The translations under genes were made by a program, and so were the position numbers. This document shows, one piece after another, positions 21,749 to 35,134 of a DNA stretch of 35,134 nucleotides; within the stretch, counting starts at the first letter, position 1, and every line of letters starts with the position of its first letter. Below the pieces are notes generated by a model. The model was not told the origin of the DNA. It did no database searches and saw only the letters and a list, made by a program, of their open reading frames with translations. This stretch comes from Acidimicrobiaceae bacterium (GTDB lineage: Bacteria; Actinomycetota; Acidimicrobiia; Acidimicrobiales; RAAP-2): contig PLON01000026.1 in the NCBI GenBank assembly GCA_003142095.1, forward strand, positions 7,946-43,079. The letters run 5' to 3'.

Positions 21749-22036
21749 CTACGCCGACGTTGAGGAATCTCTAAGGGTTGTTTTCACTTTGGCGAGCGCC
21801 TCAAACATGAGAGGCCGGCGCGATCAGAGCGTGCCTATTCAAGTGACCTGACCGACGCCTAGTGGAAGATGCAGGTGATCTTCGATATGTCCTCGACGCG
21901 ATGTTGGCACACGCTGACTGGTCTGGAGCGATTTGGAGACGTTCGATCGAGAGGGAATGTCATGTGACATCCTCGACGAAGACTGTGATTCGTGGAAACG
22001 ACTTCAGCGGCTGCGCCAACTTCCCACAGCGGCCAA
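21749..22036. other. Intergenic region left of tnpB
   Basis: About 290 bp with no convincing gene. It should contain the left end of the insertion sequence. A hairpin-forming stretch at 21951-21974 (GAGG, 2-base bulge, ATGTCA, tg, TGACATCCTC) resembles the subterminal hairpins of IS200/IS605-type ends, but the exact element boundary cannot be fixed from one copy. Confidence 0.35.
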
Positions 22037-23389
22037 GTGCTCTCACGAGCCGTCACGTTCCAGTTCACCCTTGACCCGAATGACGAGCAGAAGATCCTGC
22101 TCGTCAAGTGCGCGGGAGCCCGTCGCTTCACCATCAACCACCACTTGGCTCGCGTGAAGGCCAACTTAGACGCCAGGTCCGTCGAGCGAGCAGCCCTCTC
22201 GGACAGTGAAGATCCGTGCGAATTCGAAACCCCTTGGCTCTCCTGGAGCGCGTTCTCCTTCATCAACGAGATCAACGCATGGAAGAACGGCGAGTCCAAC
22301 GAATCGCCGTTCAACGAGGATGGGAGCCGAGGTCTTGCCTGGCGCCACGAACTACCCAATGACGCCTTTGAGTGCGCCAGCGTGGACGCGGCGCGGTCAC
22401 TCTTGAACTTTGCCGCGTCACGAAGTGGAAAGAGAAGTGGCGCCCCCGTCGGGTTTCCTGGCTTCCAGGCCAAAGGGAAGGTGACACCGAGCTTTCGGCT
22501 TCGCAATCGCACGAAGCCAGGTCAGCCACCCACCAGCCAGCCCATCCATTTCACCAATCCCTCACATCTGCGCCTGCCCAAGTTTCGCGCGATCAAACTC
22601 TTCGGTCCCACCCGCAAGATTCGCCGAATGATCGACGCCGGTCGCTTTCACGTCTACTCGGCCACACTCACCGAACGTGCCGGACGCTGGATCGTCTCAC
22701 TGACTGGAGTCGCGGCCGAACTGCACCGGGCTGAGCGCAGTCGCGCTTCTCGTCACGCCATTCCTGTCGGAGTCGACCGGGGAATCAAGTCTCTCGCCGT
22801 CGCGGCCGACGCGAACGGCGTTCCCTTCGAGAGCTTCGAGGGGGTGAAACCATTAAGAGAAGCGCAGCAAAAGCTCAAGGCGGCCAACCAGGCCCTGGCC
22901 AGAACCACACCGGGGTCCAAAGGACGCCAACGAGCACGAGCTCGACTCGCCAAGACCCGCCGCAAGGTCGCCAATACCCGACGGCACTGGGTGCACCAAG
23001 CCTCCAAGGCTCTCGTCACCCGGTCCCAGGTGCTCGTGTTGGAAGACCTCAACGTCGCAGGAATGGTGAGAAACCGACGCCTGGCGAAGTCCGTCTCGGA
23101 CGCCGCCATGGGCGAGCTCTCCCGCCAGATCCTCTACAAAGCGAAGTGGCACGGCGTCGAGGTTCGAGTGGCCGACCGGTTCTTCCCATCGTCCAAGAAA
23201 TGTTCGGGCTGCGGCGAAGTCAAGAGCGAACTGAACTTGTCGGATCGGACCTATTCGTGTGGTGTCTGTGATCTCGTGATGGACCGCGACCTCAACGCGG
23301 CCATCAATCTGGCCCGCTGGCGGCCGAAAGGACCGACTGCCGGCGCGACACCAGCCTCAAAGCGCTCTTCGCTTCTCCCAACAACCTGA
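22037..23389 (+). CDS. tnpB: TnpB, RNA-guided nuclease of an IS200/IS605- or IS607-type element
   Basis: OrfB/TnpB-family protein, ancestor-type of Cas12: a small nuclease guided by an RNA from the element's right end. From the first in-frame ATG (21992) the RuvC motifs are GVDRGIKSLAV (D262), VLEDLNVAGM (E351) and DRDLNAAINL (D431/D433). The zinc ribbon has CSGCG (C404, C407) and CGVC (C423, C426). All catalytic residues are intact. The GTG at 22037 is preferred as start because the product then opens SRAVTFQFTLDPNDEQ, the usual beta strand; this gives 450 residues. No TnpA transposase gene accompanies it, so the element is either moved in trans or kept for another role. Its guide RNA would be expected to overlap the gene's 3' end. 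Confidence 0.9.
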   Translation: MLSRAVTFQFTLDPNDEQKILLVKCAGARRFTINHHLARVKANLDARSVERAALSDSEDPCEFETPWLSWSAFSFINEINAWKNGESNESPFNEDGSRGLAWRHELPNDAFECASVDAARSLLNFAASRSGKRSGAPVGFPGFQAKGKVTPSFRLRNRTKPGQPPTSQPIHFTNPSHLRLPKFRAIKLFGPTRKIRRMIDAGRFHVYSATLTERAGRWIVSLTGVAAELHRAERSRASRHAIPVGVDRGIKSLAVAADANGVPFESFEGVKPLREAQQKLKAANQALARTTPGSKGRQRARARLAKTRRKVANTRRHWVHQASKALVTRSQVLVLEDLNVAGMVRNRRLAKSVSDAAMGELSRQILYKAKWHGVEVRVADRFFPSSKKCSGCGEVKSELNLSDRTYSCGVCDLVMDRDLNAAINLARWRPKGPTAGATPASKRSSLLPTT

Positions 23390-29253: not shown

Positions 29254-29327
29254 GCGGGCGTAGTTCAGCGGCAGAACATCAGCTTCCCAAGCTGAGAACG
29301 CGAGTTCGATTCTCGTCGCCCGCTCCA
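29254..29327 (+). tRNA. tRNA-Gly (anticodon CCC)
   Basis: Cloverleaf drawn by hand: acceptor GCGGGCG pairs with CGCCCGC (29254-29260 with 29317-29323), D stem GTTC/GAAC, anticodon stem TCAGC/GCTGA around loop TTCCCAA (29284-29290, anticodon CCC), a four-base variable loop and T stem GCGAG/CTCGT with loop TTCGATT. The discriminator is T at 29324, and CCA is encoded at 29325-29327. It reads GGG codons. Its last 46 bp recur downstream as five direct repeats, so it is the attachment site of an integrated array and its present 3' half came from the most recent insertion. Confidence 0.96.
29282..29327 (+). repeat. Cassette-array core repeat, copy 0 (inside the tRNA gene)
   Basis: The 46 bp from the last base pairs of the anticodon stem through the anticodon loop, T arm and acceptor to CCA. 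These are the bases shared with the downstream copies, so copy 0 marks the left junction of the array. Confidence 0.9.
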
Positions 29328-29339
29328 ATTGAGGAGTGC

Positions 29340-29375
29340 AAAAACCTCGTAGGAGACCATAAATCCCCTACGAGG
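29340..29375 (-). terminator. Rho-independent terminator for the ATPase gene
   Basis: CCTCGTAGG (29345-29353) and CCTACGAGG (29367-29375) form a 9-bp perfect stem. On the minus strand the stem is followed by TTTTT (29344-29340), as needed for termination of the minus-strand ATPase transcript about 270 bp after its stop. It also shields the tRNA gene from antisense reading. Confidence 0.7.
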
Positions 29376-29413
29376 AAAATCTCACTCACGTGATAGTTCG
29401 GCTATTTTCACGA

Positions 29414-29460
29414 CATTGTGGCCCATTTTTGTTTCTCGAGTGCCCAACTAATGCCCAAAA
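29414..29460. other. Arm-like motif behind core copy 0
   Basis: Starts CATTGTGGCCC 87 bp after the tRNA end and includes AGTGCCCAACTA (29439-29450) then ATGCCCAAAA. The 12-mer AGTGCCCAACTA recurs exactly at 34422-34433 behind core copy 4. Candidate integrase arm-binding site. Confidence 0.4.
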
Positions 29461-29642
29461 CGATTTCCCGCCGAGCGATTAATCGTAAGTCCGAGTGCTT
29501 CGACGGTTGAATCACGATTGCAGCCCCCTTAGGGTGCACTGTCCGATTCTTGACGCAGTTGGTGTTCTCAGTTACCACAGCTGAGAACGGTCACTACTGC
29601 ATCGATTGGCGCCACGTTGTAAATGCGCAATTGTTCAGATTT

Positions 29643-30911
29643 CTACTGAAGGTGAGTCCAAAGCTGGTCGATCGGCGCGACATGAATTGACGCCTCGTGG
29701 GTGTAAGAGCGCTCACCGGCGTACAAAGCAATGCCGCCGAGAAAACGTGGCCCCAACGCATCTTTGAGTTTACGAAGACCGGCAAGATCGGAACCTGCGA
29801 TGCGTCTGGATGATTTCACTTCAATTGCAACTACAGCACCGTCATCACGCTCCAGAATGATGTCAACTTCGTCGCCATCAAACGTTCGCCAATGTCCGTA
29901 ATCACTAACTGAATCTGACCACGAGATCTGCTTTAGTAGTTCACCTACGACGAACGTCTCCATCAAATGACCGAACTGGGTTAACGCTGAGGGTTGCAGT
30001 GCGGCAAGTTTCGTCGGCGTTAAGCGAAGGAGACGAGCTGCAATTGCGGTATCGAGGACGTGTACTTTCGGAGCGGATCCCGCACGAGCGCGTACGGTCG
30101 TTCCCCAAGCTGGCAACCGCTCAATCAAGAAGACCGCTTCTAACAATCTCGTGTAATTCTCTCCCGTTCTGGCTTCAAGGCCAACCGAAGAGGACGCCGC
30201 GGCAATGTTGAGAATTTGACCCGTTTGACTTGCTAGTCGTTCCAGTAGTCGTGGCATCAACGTTCGCTGTCGGATTTTTGCCAATTCGCGCAGGTCTCGG
30301 TCCAGGGTTTGGGTTACGTAATCATCAATCCACCGAGCACGATCTTGCTCACGTCGTTGCAGGACCATTGGCAGTCCGCCAGTCGTAACTCGATTGATGT
30401 AGTCAACACGGCCCAGTGTCGATCGTCGTGACGTTACGACGCTGGCCGGATCCACCATTACTGCTTCCACAAAGTTTTCGCGAACACCAGCAATCTCGCC
30501 CTGCGAAAATGGGCGTACCGTCACGAGGTGTAGTCGGCCCGTCAATGCTTGCGCCGCTTCGGGAAGAGCGCCGTACCTCGTCGATCCGGTAAGAAGAAAT
30601 CGGCCAGGTCGTTGCAATCGATTGAGCTCCGCTTTAATCGCGTCGAGAATGATGGGGACGCGTTGATATTCGTCAATGCAGACGGGGGCCGCTCCACCAA
30701 CAAACAAGCTCGGATCCCGTTGCGCTTCTTCGCGCACGACCAGGTCGTCAAGGTCCAGGACTTCAACGCCAGCGTCTGACGCAATAGTCCGTAAAAGAGT
30801 CGATTTTCCAACCGAACGGGGTCCTTGAAGCCCGATAACGACTTCTACGTCCAAAAGCCTTTGGACTACTTCAAGCAGGCGACGTTGGACGACATTCTGA
30901 AGTAGTTCCAT
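29643..30911 (-). CDS. AAA-family ATPase with DUF4143 C-terminal domain
   Basis: A 422-residue protein. N-terminal AAA_14 domain with Walker A GPRSVGKST at 30-38, Walker B VCIDEYQRVP at 77-86 and FLLTGSTR as sensor-type strand. The C-terminal DUF4143 region ends with GDEVDIILERDDGAVVAIEVKSS (split: GDEVDIILE and VVAIEVKSS), a spacing of acidic residues and Lys like a PD-(D/E)xK nuclease fold. Family members are widespread and of unknown function. The minus-strand TATGAT at 30918-30923 preceded by TGA (extended -10) lies 6 nt before the ATG, suggesting a leaderless message. It is the only gene of cassette 1; the other cassettes carry toxin-antitoxin genes, so a stabilising or defensive role is possible but not shown. 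Confidence 0.8.
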   Translation of the reverse strand: MELLQNVVQRRLLEVVQRLLDVEVVIGLQGPRSVGKSTLLRTIASDAGVEVLDLDDLVVREEAQRDPSLFVGGAAPVCIDEYQRVPIILDAIKAELNRLQRPGRFLLTGSTRYGALPEAAQALTGRLHLVTVRPFSQGEIAGVRENFVEAVMVDPASVVTSRRSTLGRVDYINRVTTGGLPMVLQRREQDRARWIDDYVTQTLDRDLRELAKIRQRTLMPRLLERLASQTGQILNIAAASSSVGLEARTGENYTRLLEAVFLIERLPAWGTTVRARAGSAPKVHVLDTAIAARLLRLTPTKLAALQPSALTQFGHLMETFVVGELLKQISWSDSVSDYGHWRTFDGDEVDIILERDDGAVVAIEVKSSRRIAGSDLAGLRKLKDALGPRFLGGIALYAGERSYTHEASIHVAPIDQLWTHLQ

Positions 30912-30962
30912 CGAGTGATCATATCATTTATTTCGTAATACGAGGTACTTTTCATTCGTAAT
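30912..30962 (-). promoter_or_regulatory. Promoter and repeat operator of the ATPase gene
   Basis: Extended -10 TGATATGAT (minus strand, TATGAT at 30918-30923) ends 6 nt before the ATG. Upstream, TTCGTAAT occurs twice on the plus strand (30932-30939 and 30955-30962) with 23-bp periodicity, close to two helical turns, as expected for a direct-repeat operator. Confidence 0.45.
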
Positions 30963-31109
30963 CCGAGCATCTTAAGATTCGCACATCGAGCCGACCATGC
31001 GGCTCGTTTGAGAGAAGTCGTAGTGCCCGTAGTGATTTCATCCAACTTTAGAACACGGAAATATGCGTTTTATCAGGTATTTTGTAATCACGGTTCTGGC
31101 AAAGCATCC

Positions 31110-31155
31110 GCTTCCCAAGCTGAGAACGCGAGTTCGATTCTCGTCGCCCGCTCCA
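31110..31155 (+). repeat. Core repeat copy 1 (tRNA-Gly 3' fragment)
   Basis: All 46 bp are identical to the tRNA 3' part at 29282-29327, including CCA. CATC stands at the equivalent tRNA position upstream, then bases differ (CG for AG), so identity starts within the anticodon stem. End of cassette 1. Confidence 0.92.
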
Positions 31156-31386
31156 GACTTGATCTCGTTGCCACGACTGACCAAATCATTGCAAACATTG
31201 CCGTTGGCTTTCACCACTGTTCACCACTGTTTGCTCCTGTTCGCCACCTCTTGCTGTCGCAGCACTGTCGCATCGCGACGATTGCAGAACACCACATCTC
31301 GTCTTCGTTCGCTATTCGTCTCTCACCTATTTAGTCTCCAACTTTCCCGGCATGATTCAGCGTGGTGTCCAACTGATCGAGACTAA

Positions 31387-31429
31387 TGGGGGCTGAACCC
31401 TTGCGCGGGCTCAGCCCCCATGGTACAGT
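31387..31429 (+). promoter_or_regulatory. Promoter with inverted-repeat operator, cassette 2
   Basis: TTGCGC (31401-31406), 17 bp, TACAGT (31424-31429) preceded by TGG (extended -10), then 7 nt to the ATG at 31437. A perfect 10-bp inverted repeat TGGGGGCTGA/TCAGCCCCCA (31387-31396 and 31411-31420) brackets the -35, an expected place for an autoregulating antitoxin complex to bind. Confidence 0.55.
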
Positions 31430-31436
31430 CAGGACT

Positions 31437-31685
31437 ATGAATGAGCCAACGGTCGTCACTACACAAGCGCGGGGTCGATTGACTCTCGGGGCACTGGCCA
31501 CGGCAAGTCAGTACATCGTGCACTCCGAGGCGGACGGTGTACTCGTCCTTGAACCCGCAACGGTTCTGTCGGTGACTGAGAAGAAGTTGCTGGAGAACTC
31601 AGCTCTTATGGCTGCGATCAAGGGCAGTCGCGAACATCCCGAGAAAATGGTGAAGAGGGACCGCAGCGGATCACCTCGCGCGTAG
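31437..31685 (+). CDS. Putative antitoxin, AbrB/SpoVT-like
   Basis: 82 residues from the ATG at 31437; a frame extension to 31386 runs through the operator repeat and is rejected. VVTTQARGRLTLGALA and SEADGVLVLEPATVLSVTE suggest a swapped-hairpin (AbrB-like) DNA-binding fold, then a helical tail with basic end (KRDRSGSPRA) that could bind the toxin. It precedes the RelE-like gene by 15 bp. No ribosome site precedes the ATG, which is 7 nt from the -10. Assignment is by shape and context. Confidence 0.55.
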   Translation: MNEPTVVTTQARGRLTLGALATASQYIVHSEADGVLVLEPATVLSVTEKKLLENSALMAAIKGSREHPEKMVKRDRSGSPRA

Positions 31686-31700
31686 GGAGTCCGAGCAGCC

Positions 31701-31976
31701 GTGGCCGATCTCTACTTTTCTGAGGAAGCTAACGCACTCATAGAGGAGTTAGAACGCACGCCCTCCCGACGGCATTTGCTCGGGCGATTAAATACCGCTC
31801 TTGACACGCTCGAGGCAGACCCGCAGGATGTGCGGTGCCGTCGCCGAAGGTTTGACACCATTGGATGTTGGGCGATAACGGTCATCTCTAGCGAAGGAGA
31901 TTGGCTGATCCTTTGGAGCGAGAGGAATGAGTTATGTACAGAAGTGAACGTCCGAGCCATCACTCCCGACCCATAG
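31701..31976 (+). CDS. Putative RelE/ParE-like toxin
   Basis: 91 residues from GTG. The pattern (basic helix pair SRRHLLGRLNTALDTLEADP, then strands CWAITVISSEGDWLILWSERN) fits the RelE/ParE fold, whose members cut mRNA on ribosomes or poison gyrase. The usual C-terminal catalytic residues are not clearly recognisable, so the activity is open. Pairing with the upstream small DNA-binding protein supports a type II toxin-antitoxin module. Confidence 0.55.
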   Translation: MADLYFSEEANALIEELERTPSRRHLLGRLNTALDTLEADPQDVRCRRRRFDTIGCWAITVISSEGDWLILWSERNELCTEVNVRAITPDP

Positions 31977-32091
31977 ACCTCAAGAGGATGATCTCATAAA
32001 GACGCCCACAGGACGCCCGAAGTCCGCTTCAATATTTCATGTCTTGGCCCTGACCAAGTAATTCGTAGTATCCACCGTCCTTGGACATCAA

Positions 32092-32136
32092 CTTCCCAAG
32101 CTGAGAACGCGAGTTCGATTCTCGTCGCCCGCTCCA
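32092..32136 (+). repeat. Core repeat copy 2 (tRNA-Gly 3' fragment)
   Basis: 45 bp identical to the tRNA 3' part. Upstream ACATCA also agrees with the tRNA, with one A for G between, so similarity reaches through most of the anticodon stem. End of cassette 2. Confidence 0.92.
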
Positions 32137-32204
32137 ACGGTTTTGGTCCAATCCCTTTGATTCCAACGGTTTGAAAGTGACCAGCGATGTCCGGCACACG
32201 CCGT

Positions 32205-32250
32205 CATTGACCCGTGTTACATGCCCGCATATGCCCGTGGTATGCCTGAA
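32205..32250. other. Arm-like motif behind core copy 2
   Basis: CATTGACCCGTGTT starts 69 bp after the core end and is followed by ATGCCCGCAT, ATGCCCGTGG and TATGCCTG. 13 of the first 14 bases match the motif at 34385-34398, which lies 70 bp behind core copy 4. Candidate integrase arm-binding site. Confidence 0.5.
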
Positions 32251-32376
32251 ATTGTCGAGGCGACAGCGATCTTGATTGCACTAAGGAGTGATCGTTGAAT
32301 TCGGGAGGTGGGGACTGCTGTTGGTGTGCGAGAGTTCCCCGTTAAATTGCGCCGTTCGTGGACCGGCTTTAGATAT

Positions 32377-32670
32377 TCAAGGAGTGATGAAGATTTCGTG
32401 AGTACCAATGCGACGCCAAATGACGTGTGGCTCACCTGGCACTGTTGATTCGCCGTACTCGAAGGTTGCGCGCCCGTCAGCGGCCCAGGTCATTTCGAAA
32501 ATTCCCGAAGCACCTTTAATTCCCTTGACACGAAGCCCCTTGCGAAAGCCACGTTGTCGTTGCAGGTCCTCCACGAACTGAGCGACGGCCAAAAGGAAGT
32601 GTGCTTGCTGCTCTCGGCTCAGACCATCGAAGTCTTTACCGAAGCGAGCCAGCCATGCGTACGTTGGCAA
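32377..32670 (-). CDS. Putative RelE-like toxin
   Basis: 97 residues from a TTG start, 6 bp after the antitoxin gene. The N terminus MPTYAWLARFGKDFDGLS and the middle KGLRVKGIKGASGIFEMTWAADGRATFEYG show the helix-then-sheet order of RelE/ParE proteins, ending in IWRRIGTHEIF with Arg and His in the position of RelE-type catalytic residues. Paired with an AbrB-type antitoxin it forms a type II module on its own small operon. Confidence 0.6.
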   Translation of the reverse strand: MPTYAWLARFGKDFDGLSREQQAHFLLAVAQFVEDLQRQRGFRKGLRVKGIKGASGIFEMTWAADGRATFEYGESTVPGEPHVIWRRIGTHEIFITP

Positions 32671-32676
32671 TGCTTT

Positions 32677-32982
32677 TTACAACTTCTTTCGCTGACGCGT
32701 CGGCTTTGACCGCTGGCGGAGCGAGCCGAGCAACTCTTCGCCGGAAGCGAAAGTACTGACCCTCTCGGCGGCACGATCGGCGTCAGCATCACGCTCGCCA
32801 GCCTGCCAGTCGGTCGTCCAGAACCACGCTTGCGTGGCATCGATGAGTTTCTGTGGTCGCAGGAGGATTCCTTCAGTCGTGATCTCGGCATCCAAGAGAT
32901 CACCCTCCTCCAGGTGCGCGGCACGGCGCACATCGTCAGGAAGTGTAATTTGACCCTTGGCTCGCACGGTGGTTCTCGACAT
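32677..32982 (-). CDS. AbrB/MazE-family antitoxin
   Basis: 101 residues. SRTTVRAKGQITLPDDVRRA near the N terminus and HLEEGDLLDAEITTEGILLRP are the classical SpoVT/AbrB swapped-hairpin DNA-binding domain. The remainder is a charged, toxin-binding type tail (TRQRKKL end). A perfect TATAAT (minus, 32990-32995) with upstream TGG (extended -10) is 7 nt from the ATG, so the message is probably leaderless. Confidence 0.78.
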   Translation of the reverse strand: MSRTTVRAKGQITLPDDVRRAAHLEEGDLLDAEITTEGILLRPQKLIDATQAWFWTTDWQAGERDADADRAAERVSTFASGEELLGSLRQRSKPTRQRKKL

Positions 32983-33140
32983 GAATCAAATTATACCATT
33001 GGAGAGTCCGAATTTCCGATTTTCGCACTTTTGCCTGCTAAAAAGCTAGACAGCCCAAGGAGCCCAGTTAACTGGAAATCAGGATTGAGCCTTGGCTACC
33101 CAAACTCTGATATCTCCTCACTGATGAGGTATTCCATAAG

Positions 33141-33338
33141 AAGGGGTCTCCATCTAGGTACCCCTCGCGCCCGCCAGGGCAGTTCAGGGGGTCCCGCCGG
33201 GGGGCAGGTTCCGGGTGCCCGCCAGTGAGGCTGGACGGGGGCTTCCGGGTGGCACTCGCCGGAGTCGGCCAAAAAAACCCAGCTCCACGTCACAGTGGGG
33301 CTGGGATCGGCCCAAGGGTACCTAGATGGAGACCCCTT
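33141..33338. mobile_element. MITE, 198 bp, with 23-bp perfect terminal repeats
   Basis: Left end 33141-33163 (AAGGGGTCTCCATCTAGG...) and right end 33316-33338 are exact reverse complements over 23 bp. The element is flanked by the 8-bp direct repeat TCCATAAG (33133-33140 and 33339-33346), a target-site duplication. Its GC-rich interior is unlike the surrounding AT-rich cassette and has no gene. It must have been moved by a transposase encoded elsewhere; an 8-bp duplication occurs with several IS families, so the family is left open. Confidence 0.85.
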
Positions 33339-33368
33339 TCCATAAGTTCCACTTCGATTCAATTACCT

Positions 33369-33414
33369 GCTTCCCAAGCTGAGAACGCGAGTTCGATTCT
33401 CGTCGCCCGCTCCA
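33369..33414 (+). repeat. Core repeat copy 3 (tRNA-Gly 3' fragment)
   Basis: 46 bp identical to the tRNA 3' part. Upstream bases (TACCT) do not follow the tRNA, so identity begins sharply in the anticodon stem. End of cassette 3. Confidence 0.92.
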
Positions 33415-33497
33415 GACTCCGGAGATCGGCACCGCTGGTTCTCTCGAGCGGGCATTCTTCGAGAGAATGAAGTCACCACCATAGGGAAGGATCGCAA

Positions 33498-33878
33498 TTA
33501 GCCCTTAACGAGTTGGTGCGCTCGCTGGTGCGAAACCTCAAGGACTTCGCCAATGTCGCGAAGTGTCAGCCCCGCGCTTTGCAGTTCCTTAGCAGCAGCA
33601 CGGGCTTCAGCGGACGCCTTTGTCTGAGCTTGGTCGGCGCGTGCGCGGAGTTTCGCGGCATTTTCGATGTGTGCGCGAACTTTCGGCGTCAACGCGACTT
33701 GCGCCTCGACCACGACTTTTGATGCGGCAATACCAGTGACGAGACTTACCGCGTCCGCCACCATTTCGTTGACTTCGCTGAGCGAGTGCGCCTGGGAATG
33801 AATGGCGGTGCCGTTGACATCGGGAACATCGATAGCCCACCACTTCCCAACTCGGGTCACAGTGGCAGTTACATTCAT
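33498..33878 (-). CDS. HicB-like antitoxin with C-terminal helix-turn-helix
   Basis: 126 residues. The N-terminal part (VTATVTRVGKWWAIDVPDV, then SLSEVNEMVADAVSLVTG) has the HicB partial RNase-H-like fold that binds HicA. A charged helix follows (KLRARADQAQTKASAEARAA), and the C terminus, LTLRDIGEVLEVSHQRAHQLVK, is a helix-turn-helix suited to repressing the operon. The ATG overlaps the hicA stop by 4 bp. Toxin-first order is usual for hicAB. Confidence 0.75.
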   Translation of the reverse strand: MNVTATVTRVGKWWAIDVPDVNGTAIHSQAHSLSEVNEMVADAVSLVTGIAASKVVVEAQVALTPKVRAHIENAAKLRARADQAQTKASAEARAAAKELQSAGLTLRDIGEVLEVSHQRAHQLVKG

Positions 33879-34063
33879 GATCTCTCCATATCTTCGATGA
33901 TTTTCTTAGCGGTGTATTCGTTGATCTCGACGTGGCGCGGGATCGCTTGTGTCCTTGTACCAATTCGAGCAAGATCGTGTTTTGCGCCCGGTGTCACGAT
34001 CAGCGTCTCGTCCTGGTTCTTGGCAATGGCGCGAAGCCGCTTTAGCAAGTCCTTCCGTCGCAC
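33875..34063 (-). CDS. HicA-like toxin (mRNA interferase)
   Basis: 62 residues from GTG, the normal size for HicA, a double-stranded-RNA-binding-fold mRNase. LIVTPGAKHDLARIG carries the active-site His, and IPRHVEINEYTAKKIIEDM is the typical C-terminal strand and helix. A minus-strand TAGACT (34070-34075) ends 6 nt before the GTG, and CGTCTAGA repeats at 34079-34086 and 34094-34101 could be the operator. Confidence 0.8.
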   Translation of the reverse strand: MRRKDLLKRLRAIAKNQDETLIVTPGAKHDLARIGTRTQAIPRHVEINEYTAKKIIEDMERS

Positions 34064-34269
34064 AAGGCTAGTCTATTACGTCTAGATAACATTCGTCTAG
34101 AGTAAATAGACAGCCGAAGTTACCTTATCAGTGGACTCGTTTGACTCGCAGGCGCGGAGGATCAGGGATGCCCGCCGAGTGCCTACGACCAATTTTGCAT
34201 CCGACAGCGGCTTAACAAAAGGAGCTTCAACCAGGAGTTATATGCTTGAAGACTCACAGCATGCCATCC

Positions 34270-34315
34270 GCTTCCCAAGCTGAGAACGCGAGTTCGATTC
34301 TCGTCGCCCGCTCCA
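34270..34315 (+). repeat. Core repeat copy 4 (tRNA-Gly 3' fragment)
   Basis: 46 bp identical to the tRNA 3' part. The preceding CATCC matches the bases before copy 1, suggesting that cassettes 1 and 4 had the same left core half. End of cassette 4. Confidence 0.92.
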
Positions 34316-34384
34316 AGGATTTTCGTCTGAAGCCCAATAATTGTCAGGGGTTGTGGTTGGCCATTAGTGACCATTAGTGACCGC

Positions 34385-34433
34385 CATTGTCCCGTGTTCA
34401 GTGCCCAACGTATTGCCCAATAGTGCCCAACTA
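34385..34433. other. Arm-like motif behind core copy 4
   Basis: CATTGTCCCGTGTT begins 70 bp after the core end, followed by three TGCCCAA units (34402, 34412 and 34422 region). It matches the motif behind core copy 2 in sequence and offset, and shares AGTGCCCAACTA with the one behind the tRNA. Candidate integrase arm-binding site. Confidence 0.5.
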
Positions 34434-34486
34434 TTACTACATTCTGCGAAGAAGCCTCTCCATATTTCACGAGCAAAGGGTACGAT

Positions 34487-34522
34487 TTGTACGTTTGACG
34501 TTCTTAATGTATACTCCGTACA
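34487..34522 (+). promoter_or_regulatory. Promoter and operator of the Phd-RelE operon
   Basis: TTGTAC (34487-34492), 17 bp, TATACT (34510-34515), then 6 nt to the ATG at 34522. TGTACG (34489-34494) and CGTACA (34517-34522) form an inverted repeat around the -10, a plausible site for Phd autorepression. Confidence 0.5.
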
Positions 34523-34797
34523 TGAATGATACTGAGTCGCTCTCCGTAACGGATACACGACAAAATCTTGCGTCCATTATCGAACGCGTGCGGTCGCGAC
34601 ACGATCCGGTGTACCTGACTCTGAGGGGCAAAAGGGTGGCCGCCATTATCAATTCCGATGATCTTGATCGCATTATCGAACTCGCAGAAGATATGGCGGA
34701 TGTACTCGCCGCCGAAGAAGCTCGGGCTGAGATGAAGGCAACTGGTGACGCACCAATTCCTTGGGAGCAGGTAAAGGCCGATCTCGGTTTGACATGA
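34522..34797 (+). CDS. Phd/YefM-family antitoxin
   Basis: 91 residues. LSVTDTRQNLASIIERV and DPVYLTLRGKRVAAIINSDDLDRI are the Phd/YefM DNA-binding domain; the acidic C-terminal region (LAAEEARAEMKATGD) would wrap the toxin. The ATG at 34522 was chosen because it lies 6 nt from the -10 and begins the conserved domain; upstream in-frame starts lie in the promoter. The stop overlaps the relE start by 4 bp. Confidence 0.85.
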   Translation: MNDTESLSVTDTRQNLASIIERVRSRHDPVYLTLRGKRVAAIINSDDLDRIIELAEDMADVLAAEEARAEMKATGDAPIPWEQVKADLGLT

Positions 34798-35054
34798 ACT
34801 ATCAGGTTCAACTGTCGCCGCACGCAGCCCGTCAACTTCGAAAACTTGAACCAACGGCTCGTCGGCGAGTTCAAGCGGCGATTGATCTTCTTGCCGAGAA
34901 CCCTCGACCACCGGCTGCGAAGCAATTAGTTGGTGGCAAAGGCGAATGGCGAGTTCGAACAGGCGACTACCGCGTCATCTATGAAATCTATGACGGCGAA
35001 CTCTTGATTCTTGTTCTTCGCACGGGCCATCGTCGCGAGGTCTACGAGCGCTGA
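34794..35054 (+). CDS. RelE-family toxin
   Basis: 86 residues from the ATG that overlaps the antitoxin stop (ATGA). NYQVQLSPHAARQLRKLEP, ENPRPPAAKQLVGGKGEWRVR, TGDYRVIYEIYDGELLILVLR and GHRREVYE match the RelE pattern, with the basic residues and terminal Tyr used for ribosome-dependent mRNA cleavage. A longer frame from 34761 would overlap the antitoxin more and lacks support. Confidence 0.88.
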   Translation: MNYQVQLSPHAARQLRKLEPTARRRVQAAIDLLAENPRPPAAKQLVGGKGEWRVRTGDYRVIYEIYDGELLILVLRTGHRREVYER

Positions 35055-35112
35055 ACTAGAGCTACGAGCTAGTCCCGAACAGAAATCAAACCGAGAGACC
35101 GCGTGTTTGGAA

Positions 35113-35134
35113 GCTTCCCAAGCTGAGAACGCGA
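35113..35134 (+). repeat. Core repeat copy 5 (cut by window edge)
   Basis: The first 22 bp of the repeat, from GCTTCCCAAGC onward, are present and identical before the window stops. It closes cassette 5. Confidence 0.85.

Follow-up and report, generated by a model that had tools for sequence, protein, structure and literature searches.

Organization of the tRNA gene and its copies

The 35,134-nucleotide stretch of DNA analysed here (hereafter, the window) comes from contig PLON01000026.1 of an Acidimicrobiaceae assembly. It ends in a row of small gene units that lie behind a tRNA-Gly(CCC) gene and are separated by copies of the 3' part of that gene. An earlier note on this DNA had suggested that the row was assembled by a tyrosine integrase crossing over in the anticodon loop of the tRNA. 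We examined this suggestion in the window, in the rest of its genome, and in related genomes.

The tRNA-Gly(CCC) gene is the single tRNA gene found in the window. A 45-nt block of it, hereafter the core, begins with the base just left of the anticodon loop and recurs downstream.

29254..29327, + strand: tRNA-Gly(CCC) gene with encoded CCA (ARAGORN); its 3' part is the putative attachment core
29283..29327, + strand: core block, 45 nt (CTTCCC...CTCCA), opening with the final base of the 5' anticodon stem and closing with CCA
29284-29290, + strand: anticodon loop TTCCCAA
31111..31155, + strand: core copy 1, left flank CATCCG
32092..32136, + strand: core copy 2, left flank CATCAA
33370..33414, + strand: core copy 3, left flank TACCTG
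34271..34315, + strand: core copy 4, left flank CATCCG
about 35113..35134, + strand: core copy 5, incomplete, at the contig end

The four complete downstream copies match the tRNA gene with zero mismatches; counting the core of the gene itself, the window has five identical complete cores. The repeat described in the earlier note is thus present as described, exact at four downstream places and incomplete at the contig end. The note had let identity begin at GCTTCCC. Identity does run through CCA, but the start common to all copies is C 29283 and not G 29282; the latter is present in copies 1, 3, and 4 and in the incomplete copy, and is missing from copy 2 (CATCAA). As the note had observed, CATC is kept beside copies 1, 2, and 4, and copy 3 has TACC.

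A reversed core pattern, used as a control, has no match in the genome, and the exact core pattern has no match in IMG/VR. Additional core copies lie on contigs C58 and C8 of the same genome, and contigs C5 and C58 each have one end within a core copy. Therefore, the array probably extends beyond the end of the window. In the window's genus, 36 of the 99 genomes searched contain at least two core matches, some of the second matches being second tRNA genes.

Two details of the copies outside the window deserve mention. The end of C5 (L129, 1-260) and the end of C58 (reversed) both start in the core and continue into much alike sequence, which G017 also carries immediately after its tRNA; the two ends are either variants from different strains or a single unit present twice. 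A copy on C8 (L011, 779-823; G000:C8) has CTC at its end where CCA is usual. The tRNA-Gly(CCC) genes of G045, G046, and G060, which belong to other families, end likewise, and the copy may indicate an element foreign to the genus.

Gene content of the units

The cores delimit five units of about 0.8-1.8 kb, none of which carries an integrase. In accordance, there is no PF00589 match on the window contig (C59) or among the unit proteins scanned.

29328..31110: unit U1; AAA_14/DUF4143 ATPase gene 29643-30911 (- strand)
31156..32091, + strand: unit U2; P' type B (see below); two small genes, 31437-31685 and 31701-31976, without family match
32137..33369, - strand: unit U3; MazE/AbrB-type antitoxin gene 32677-32982 and 97-aa gene 32377-32670
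33415..34270, - strand: unit U4; 126-aa gene 33498-33878 beside a 59-aa frame
34316..35112, + strand: unit U5; Phd/YefM antitoxin 34522-34797 and RelE/ParE toxin 34794-35054

For the 59-aa frame of U4, the match to HicA (E 0.088) does not reach the cut-off. Relatives of the units occur elsewhere in the genus. The body of U1 together with its right-hand core is 92% identical to a cassette in G154 (contig C112), a gene segment of U3 is found at 86-91% identity in G154, G021, and G007, and the gene pair of U5 at 82% identity in G007; the U3 and U5 genes sit on other contigs there. With attachment (att) sites at both ends and no integrase, the units have the layout of cis-mobilizable elements (CIMEs), which move by accretion with a related element.

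Plain tandem duplication, or homologous recombination between the 45-bp repeats, is a highly improbable origin of such a row. The repeats are there, and the unlinked T-stem alleles described below suggest some exchange between copies. However, the unit bodies are mutually unrelated, the core being the sole family of direct repeats of at least 30 nt within the window, and the arm sites and half-sites described below are positioned as in attachment sites.

In the space that separates the U3 genes from core copy 3, at 33143-33336, a 21-nt perfect inverted repeat (GGGGTCTCCATCTAGGTACCC) encloses a G+C-rich segment of about 190 bp. The repeat is absent from the other collected stretches searched, and the segment is perhaps a small inserted piece resembling a miniature inverted-repeat transposable element.

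Identity between copies and tRNA steps up across the anticodon loop

To place the left edge of identity, we collected core copies from relatives, of which the named ones are mostly uncultured Acidimicrobiaceae and Acidimicrobiales, many of them from palsa, bog, and fen samples. After removal of duplicates, the sample comprises 51 tRNA genes and 67 non-tRNA copies, 65 of the latter from the window's genus and 2 from other families of the order. Positions are given relative to the core, negative numbers lying to its left. Among the 67 copies, agreement with the tRNA stays at the background set by base composition up to -6 and is partial at -5 to -1; it rises to 0.67 at the first C of the core, to 0.78-0.85 over TTCC, and to 0.88-1.00 from the third C through CCA. 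Identity from the anticodon loop to the 3' end is the profile of an attachment site of the mycobacteriophage L5 type. At most two mismatches in the first five core bases are found in 54 copies, and no copy has exact identity reaching further left than -5.

In these 54 copies, the tetranucleotide TCAG is enriched at -4 to -1, with a mean of 2.33 matches compared with 1.01 in flanking DNA, an enrichment equalled by none of 20000 random placements. Therefore, the CATC beside the window copies stands above chance as part of a trend. TCAG left of the loop mirrors CTGA right of it, which is the arrangement predicted for two inverted half-sites around the loop.

The same register is found at a second tRNA. 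All five displaced copies of tRNA-Gly(TCC) begin at its anticodon loop.

The 67-copy profile was seeded back to core position 8, from stretches chosen by core match, and could hide copies that share the T arm only. To catch such copies, we scanned the collected stretches (L001-L168) and the window with a seed in the T arm and acceptor stem. Among 131 sites, 121 match at no fewer than 10 of 12 positions in the anticodon-stem and variable region; the remaining 10 are six tRNA-Gly(TCC) genes, three decayed copies, and one indel-shifted copy. A T-arm pattern run over the 99 genomes added 20 further sites, examined among the matches listed and chosen from those that the core search lacked. Eight of these are identical back to the stem or loop, two are broken by N (L290, L294), and two are decayed (L292, L297); the others are five tRNA-Gly(TCC) genes, two displaced TCC copies, and one TCC-like copy beside N. 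A clean copy that shares only the T arm with the tRNA is thus absent from the 131 sites and from the 20 further ones examined among the matches listed, and on these sites we rejected a T-arm crossover.

An L5-like integrase is found beside the tRNA in relatives

A clade of tyrosine integrases of about 370-390 aa, hereafter Int1, is encoded a few hundred bases from tRNA-Gly(CCC) and convergent with it in four relatives (G029, G030, G032, and G069); six others encode Int1 close to tRNA-Gly(TCC). Over 333 aa, Int1 and the integrase of mycobacteriophage L5 share 32% identity (33% by tblastn). The residues R, K, H, R, H, and Y, which we take to be the catalytic set, are kept in all nine aligned members. 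The annotated 43-bp core of the L5 phage attachment site (attP) begins one base left of the 7-nt loop, as does the core in the window. Against TIGR02249 (integron integrase), Int1 scores 22.6 bits, the cut-off being 265, and is not an integron integrase by this measure. Five solved chains found by sequence are integrases other than Int1.

Judged from the sequences, the core of tRNA-Gly(CCC) is probably the att site of Int1, with strand exchange in or at the anticodon loop. A crossover in the loop is the best reading because identity steps up at the loop, a half-site is kept to its left, the Int1 family stands beside the tRNA in relatives, and the register is shared with L5 and with tRNA-Gly(TCC).

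Int1-type arm sites in units without integrase

Short repeats to the right of the core characterize the elements that carry Int1. TGWCC repeats lie about 43-74 nt right of CCA in eight of nine Int1 elements (G113 lacks them, and G029 is one base off). All nine have GCCC[AG] close to 88 and 98 nt and once more close to 109 or 120 nt. At least three GCCC repeats are found in 10 of 10 units of the genus with an Int1 match, and in neither of two units from other families whose Int1 matches are at 40-46%. Comparable repeats stand in two units of the window.

32178..32238, + strand: U3 arm-type repeats; TGWCC 42, 52, and 72 nt and GCCC 87 and 97 nt after CCA
34368..34429, + strand: U5 arm-type repeats; TGWCC 53, 63, and 73 nt and GCCC 88, 100, and 110 nt after CCA

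We drew a six-position arm template from the Int1 elements; it was composed after the repeats of U3 and U5 had been seen, and these two units match five of its six positions each, the background maximum being three of six among 20526 sequence windows. U1 has GCCC repeats 94, 115, and 126 nt after CCA, about 6 nt off the usual places, and U4 has no recognised arm pattern. Because the Int1-type arm pattern occurs in units that lack an integrase, we infer that U3 and U5, and perhaps U1, would be substrates of an Int1-like enzyme supplied in trans.

Units were classed as P' type A if they lack the B motif and have at least three GCCC[AG] at 60-190 nt. All nine type A units whose far end is visible have CTTCCC there. 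Three units with two GCCC repeats fall outside this count; two of them keep CTTCCC and one does not.

A second recombinase is associated with a shifted junction

A different recombinase, hereafter Int2, with open frames of about 540-715 aa, occurs at eight loci in 7 of the 99 genus genomes, one locus having an internal stop. A core copy lies within about 0.5 kb of Int2 at all eight. Seven of these junctions match the tRNA only from CAAGCTGAG onward, which places their edge about 5 nt to the right of the usual one; the remaining junction has GTTCCCAAG. The P' of U2 is of type B, a type that also opens units ending in Int2. Reading by eye the long open reading frames (ORFs) of two other type B units, L057 and L050, we found no recombinase.

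There is about an even chance that the type B units, including U2, derive from Int2, which would use the same tRNA half with an exchange a few bases further right, so that the array would combine two registers. The constant association of Int2 with core copies and the rightward start of its junctions favour this origin. So does the far end, where CTTCCC is rarer in type B units (5 of 12) than in type A units (9 of 9); the one-sided Fisher value is about 0.007 with kinship ignored. However, only 7 of the 99 genus genomes have Int2, the far end of U2 itself retains CTTCCC, as 5 of the 12 type B units do, and two of the 12 span two collected stretches, one across a 7-kb gap. The sequences thus suggest that tRNA-Gly(CCC) is used in two or more registers, and one register may not account for U2. 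The earlier note's conclusion that the array uses the loop site is best kept for the type A units. U2 has the other P' type, which also opens units ending in Int2, whose junctions mostly start about 5 nt to the right.

Other recombinase genes were seen in the window's genome. Four sets of three adjacent tyrosine-recombinase genes (L011, 6085-9298, L090, L091, and L089; G000:C8, C14, C15, and C58) resemble RIT (recombinase in trio) elements. In addition, one array unit on C58 (L010, 7789-13968) contains two recombinase genes and a small gene, and these three genes are flanked by what appear, as read from ORFs, to be the halves of an IS21-type pair.

T-stem alleles and other evidence on the position of exchange

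Core copies vary in one base pair of the T stem, which is either GAG..CTC or GGG..CCC. If all DNA right of the loop moves with the element, this pair should track the right flank.

Several observations, the behaviour of this base pair among them, weigh against exchange in the loop by Int1. First, single copies differ in where exact identity begins, over a range of -5 to +11: its left end lies at -5 to 0 in 29 of the 67 copies, within the loop in 23, and at +8 to +11 in 15. The left part of the loop is missing from 13 copies, seven of which read ...CGCAAGCTGAG. The alignment of left junctions proposed in the earlier note thus gives a step across the loop in the profile of 67 copies, but no sharp edge in single copies. 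Second, the T-stem pair agrees in 77 of 134 pairs of copies with homologous right flanks, the fraction expected by chance being 0.52; with homologous left flanks it agrees in 7 of 15. Most of these pairs are old, few recent ones are informative, and those disagree. Third, in the cleanest recent transfer, G008:C102 (L051) and G062:C7 (L146) are 100% identical over 250 bp right of CCA and 99.7% identical over 3 kb further, their host sides are 84% alike, and their T-stem pairs differ. Four other hosts of this element family, G062 included, carry the other allele than G008. The T stem of G008 thus seems, from this comparison, to have stayed with the host. Fourth, U1, U2, and U4 score zero of six for the Int1 arm pattern. 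Finally, the window's assembly (96% complete, 77 contigs) contains no Int1, the best match being at 31% and beside tRNA-Ile, and no Int2 either.

One pair of copies points the other way. L060:2056 and L130:8146 have left flanks that are 98% alike, unlike right flanks (72 of 111 columns), and different T stems. Since the T stems differ despite the alike left flanks, this pair fits an exchange left of the T stem.

It is rather unlikely that the exchange, or its final resolution, lies right of the T stem, with the stretch from loop to T stem acting as a recognition region or as heteroduplex resolved at the end of homology. The host-like T stem in the G008/G062 transfer and the lack of linkage between T-stem alleles and right flanks speak for it. 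Against it, displaced copies are identical back to the loop and so beyond the 3' end alone, the L060/L130 pair has different T stems next to alike left flanks, and the core of L5, whose integrase is related, begins at the same place on the left. G008/G062 and L060/L130 could both be accounted for if copies undergo conversion, or if branches migrate through the shared 37 bp and are resolved late. The earlier note had looked to strain comparisons for breakpoints in the T arm or at the 3' end, and these give a divided answer: L060/L130 fits the loop, whereas the T stem of G008/G062 is host-like and the alleles are distributed nearly at random.

The missing integrases and the three units without Int1 arm pattern bear on a further alternative, namely that larger elements with an integrase were shortened by deletion and that the present units are what remains of them, no longer mobile. 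Decayed core copies, which are present in relatives, also agree with it. However, the five complete cores of the window are identical, the arm sites of U3 and U5 are in place, and the genes of these two units recur on other contigs in further genomes of the genus. We consider this alternative less likely than not.

Proposed assembly of the array

With loop exchange by Int1 as the preferred reading, the array might have formed as follows. A circular unit would insert next to tRNA-Gly(CCC) and bring its own tRNA 3' half, by which the tRNA would be rebuilt. The old 3' half would be displaced to the far end of the unit, where it would be joined to the unit's own left half-site. Repeated insertion would produce the order tRNA-U1-core-U2-core, and so on. 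Int1 acting in trans would have inserted U3, U5, and perhaps U1, and a second system, Int2, would have inserted U2. The 7-nt loop would be the overlap region.

Outside the array, at 21992-23389, the window contains a 465-aa OrfB_IS605/TnpB-like gene with a Cas12f1-like TNB domain.

Discussion

Crossover in the loop is itself a known class. The Islander report lists 2083 islands with anticodon-centred attP and 1836 with sites in the T region (PMC4383910); the former, class 'A', is the class that the earlier note had named. In a second report, phages with 42-47 bp cores in tRNA-Gly-CCC rebuild the tRNA, and the anticodon loop is described as common for mycobacteriophage att sites (PMC10865867). 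The array in the window resembles L5 in the related tyrosine integrase, seen in relatives, and in a core that runs from one base left of the loop to near the 3' end of the tRNA. Unlike L5, its units are about 1 kb long, lack an integrase, stand in a row of at least five, and carry cargo that includes toxin-antitoxin genes.

The nearest published parallels we found are CIMEs and the ssrA islands of Dehalococcoides (PMC3146451). In that report, the islands form rows bounded by repeats of the tmRNA 3' end at ssrA, and 15 of them, without an integration module, are interpreted as possible CIMEs (PMC3146451). The Dehalococcoides rows involve serine recombinases and 20-bp repeats, whereas the array described here goes with a tyrosine integrase family, 45-nt repeats, and units of one or two genes.

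Relative to these systems, the departures are a row of small units without integrase, arm sites in place in some of them, and two recombinases on one tRNA half. Among the matches listed in a literature search, there was no report of tRNA-anchored, integrase-less cassette arrays in this group.

Integrons consist of a fixed site and, behind it, short cassettes in a row, some of them with toxin-antitoxin genes; the enzyme need not be encoded in the cassette. The array is integron-like in this layout, but its repeat is a tRNA core and its arm sites lie inside the unit. Tentatively, and with somewhat less than even confidence, we picture the units as tRNA-anchored, integron-like cassettes of about 1 kb, each with its own core and some with arm sites, which would be stacked by an L5-like integrase acting in trans and by a second recombinase with a shifted exchange, while the zone from loop to CCA would scramble the T-stem alleles.

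If true, this would be a second route to integron-like cassette arrays, by way of tRNA att sites and integrases supplied in trans. Island finders that require an integrase in each unit would overlook such arrays, and under its own rule Islander would presumably miss the one in the window. The T-stem allele differences between copies would provide a natural experiment on the position of exchange within a tRNA core.
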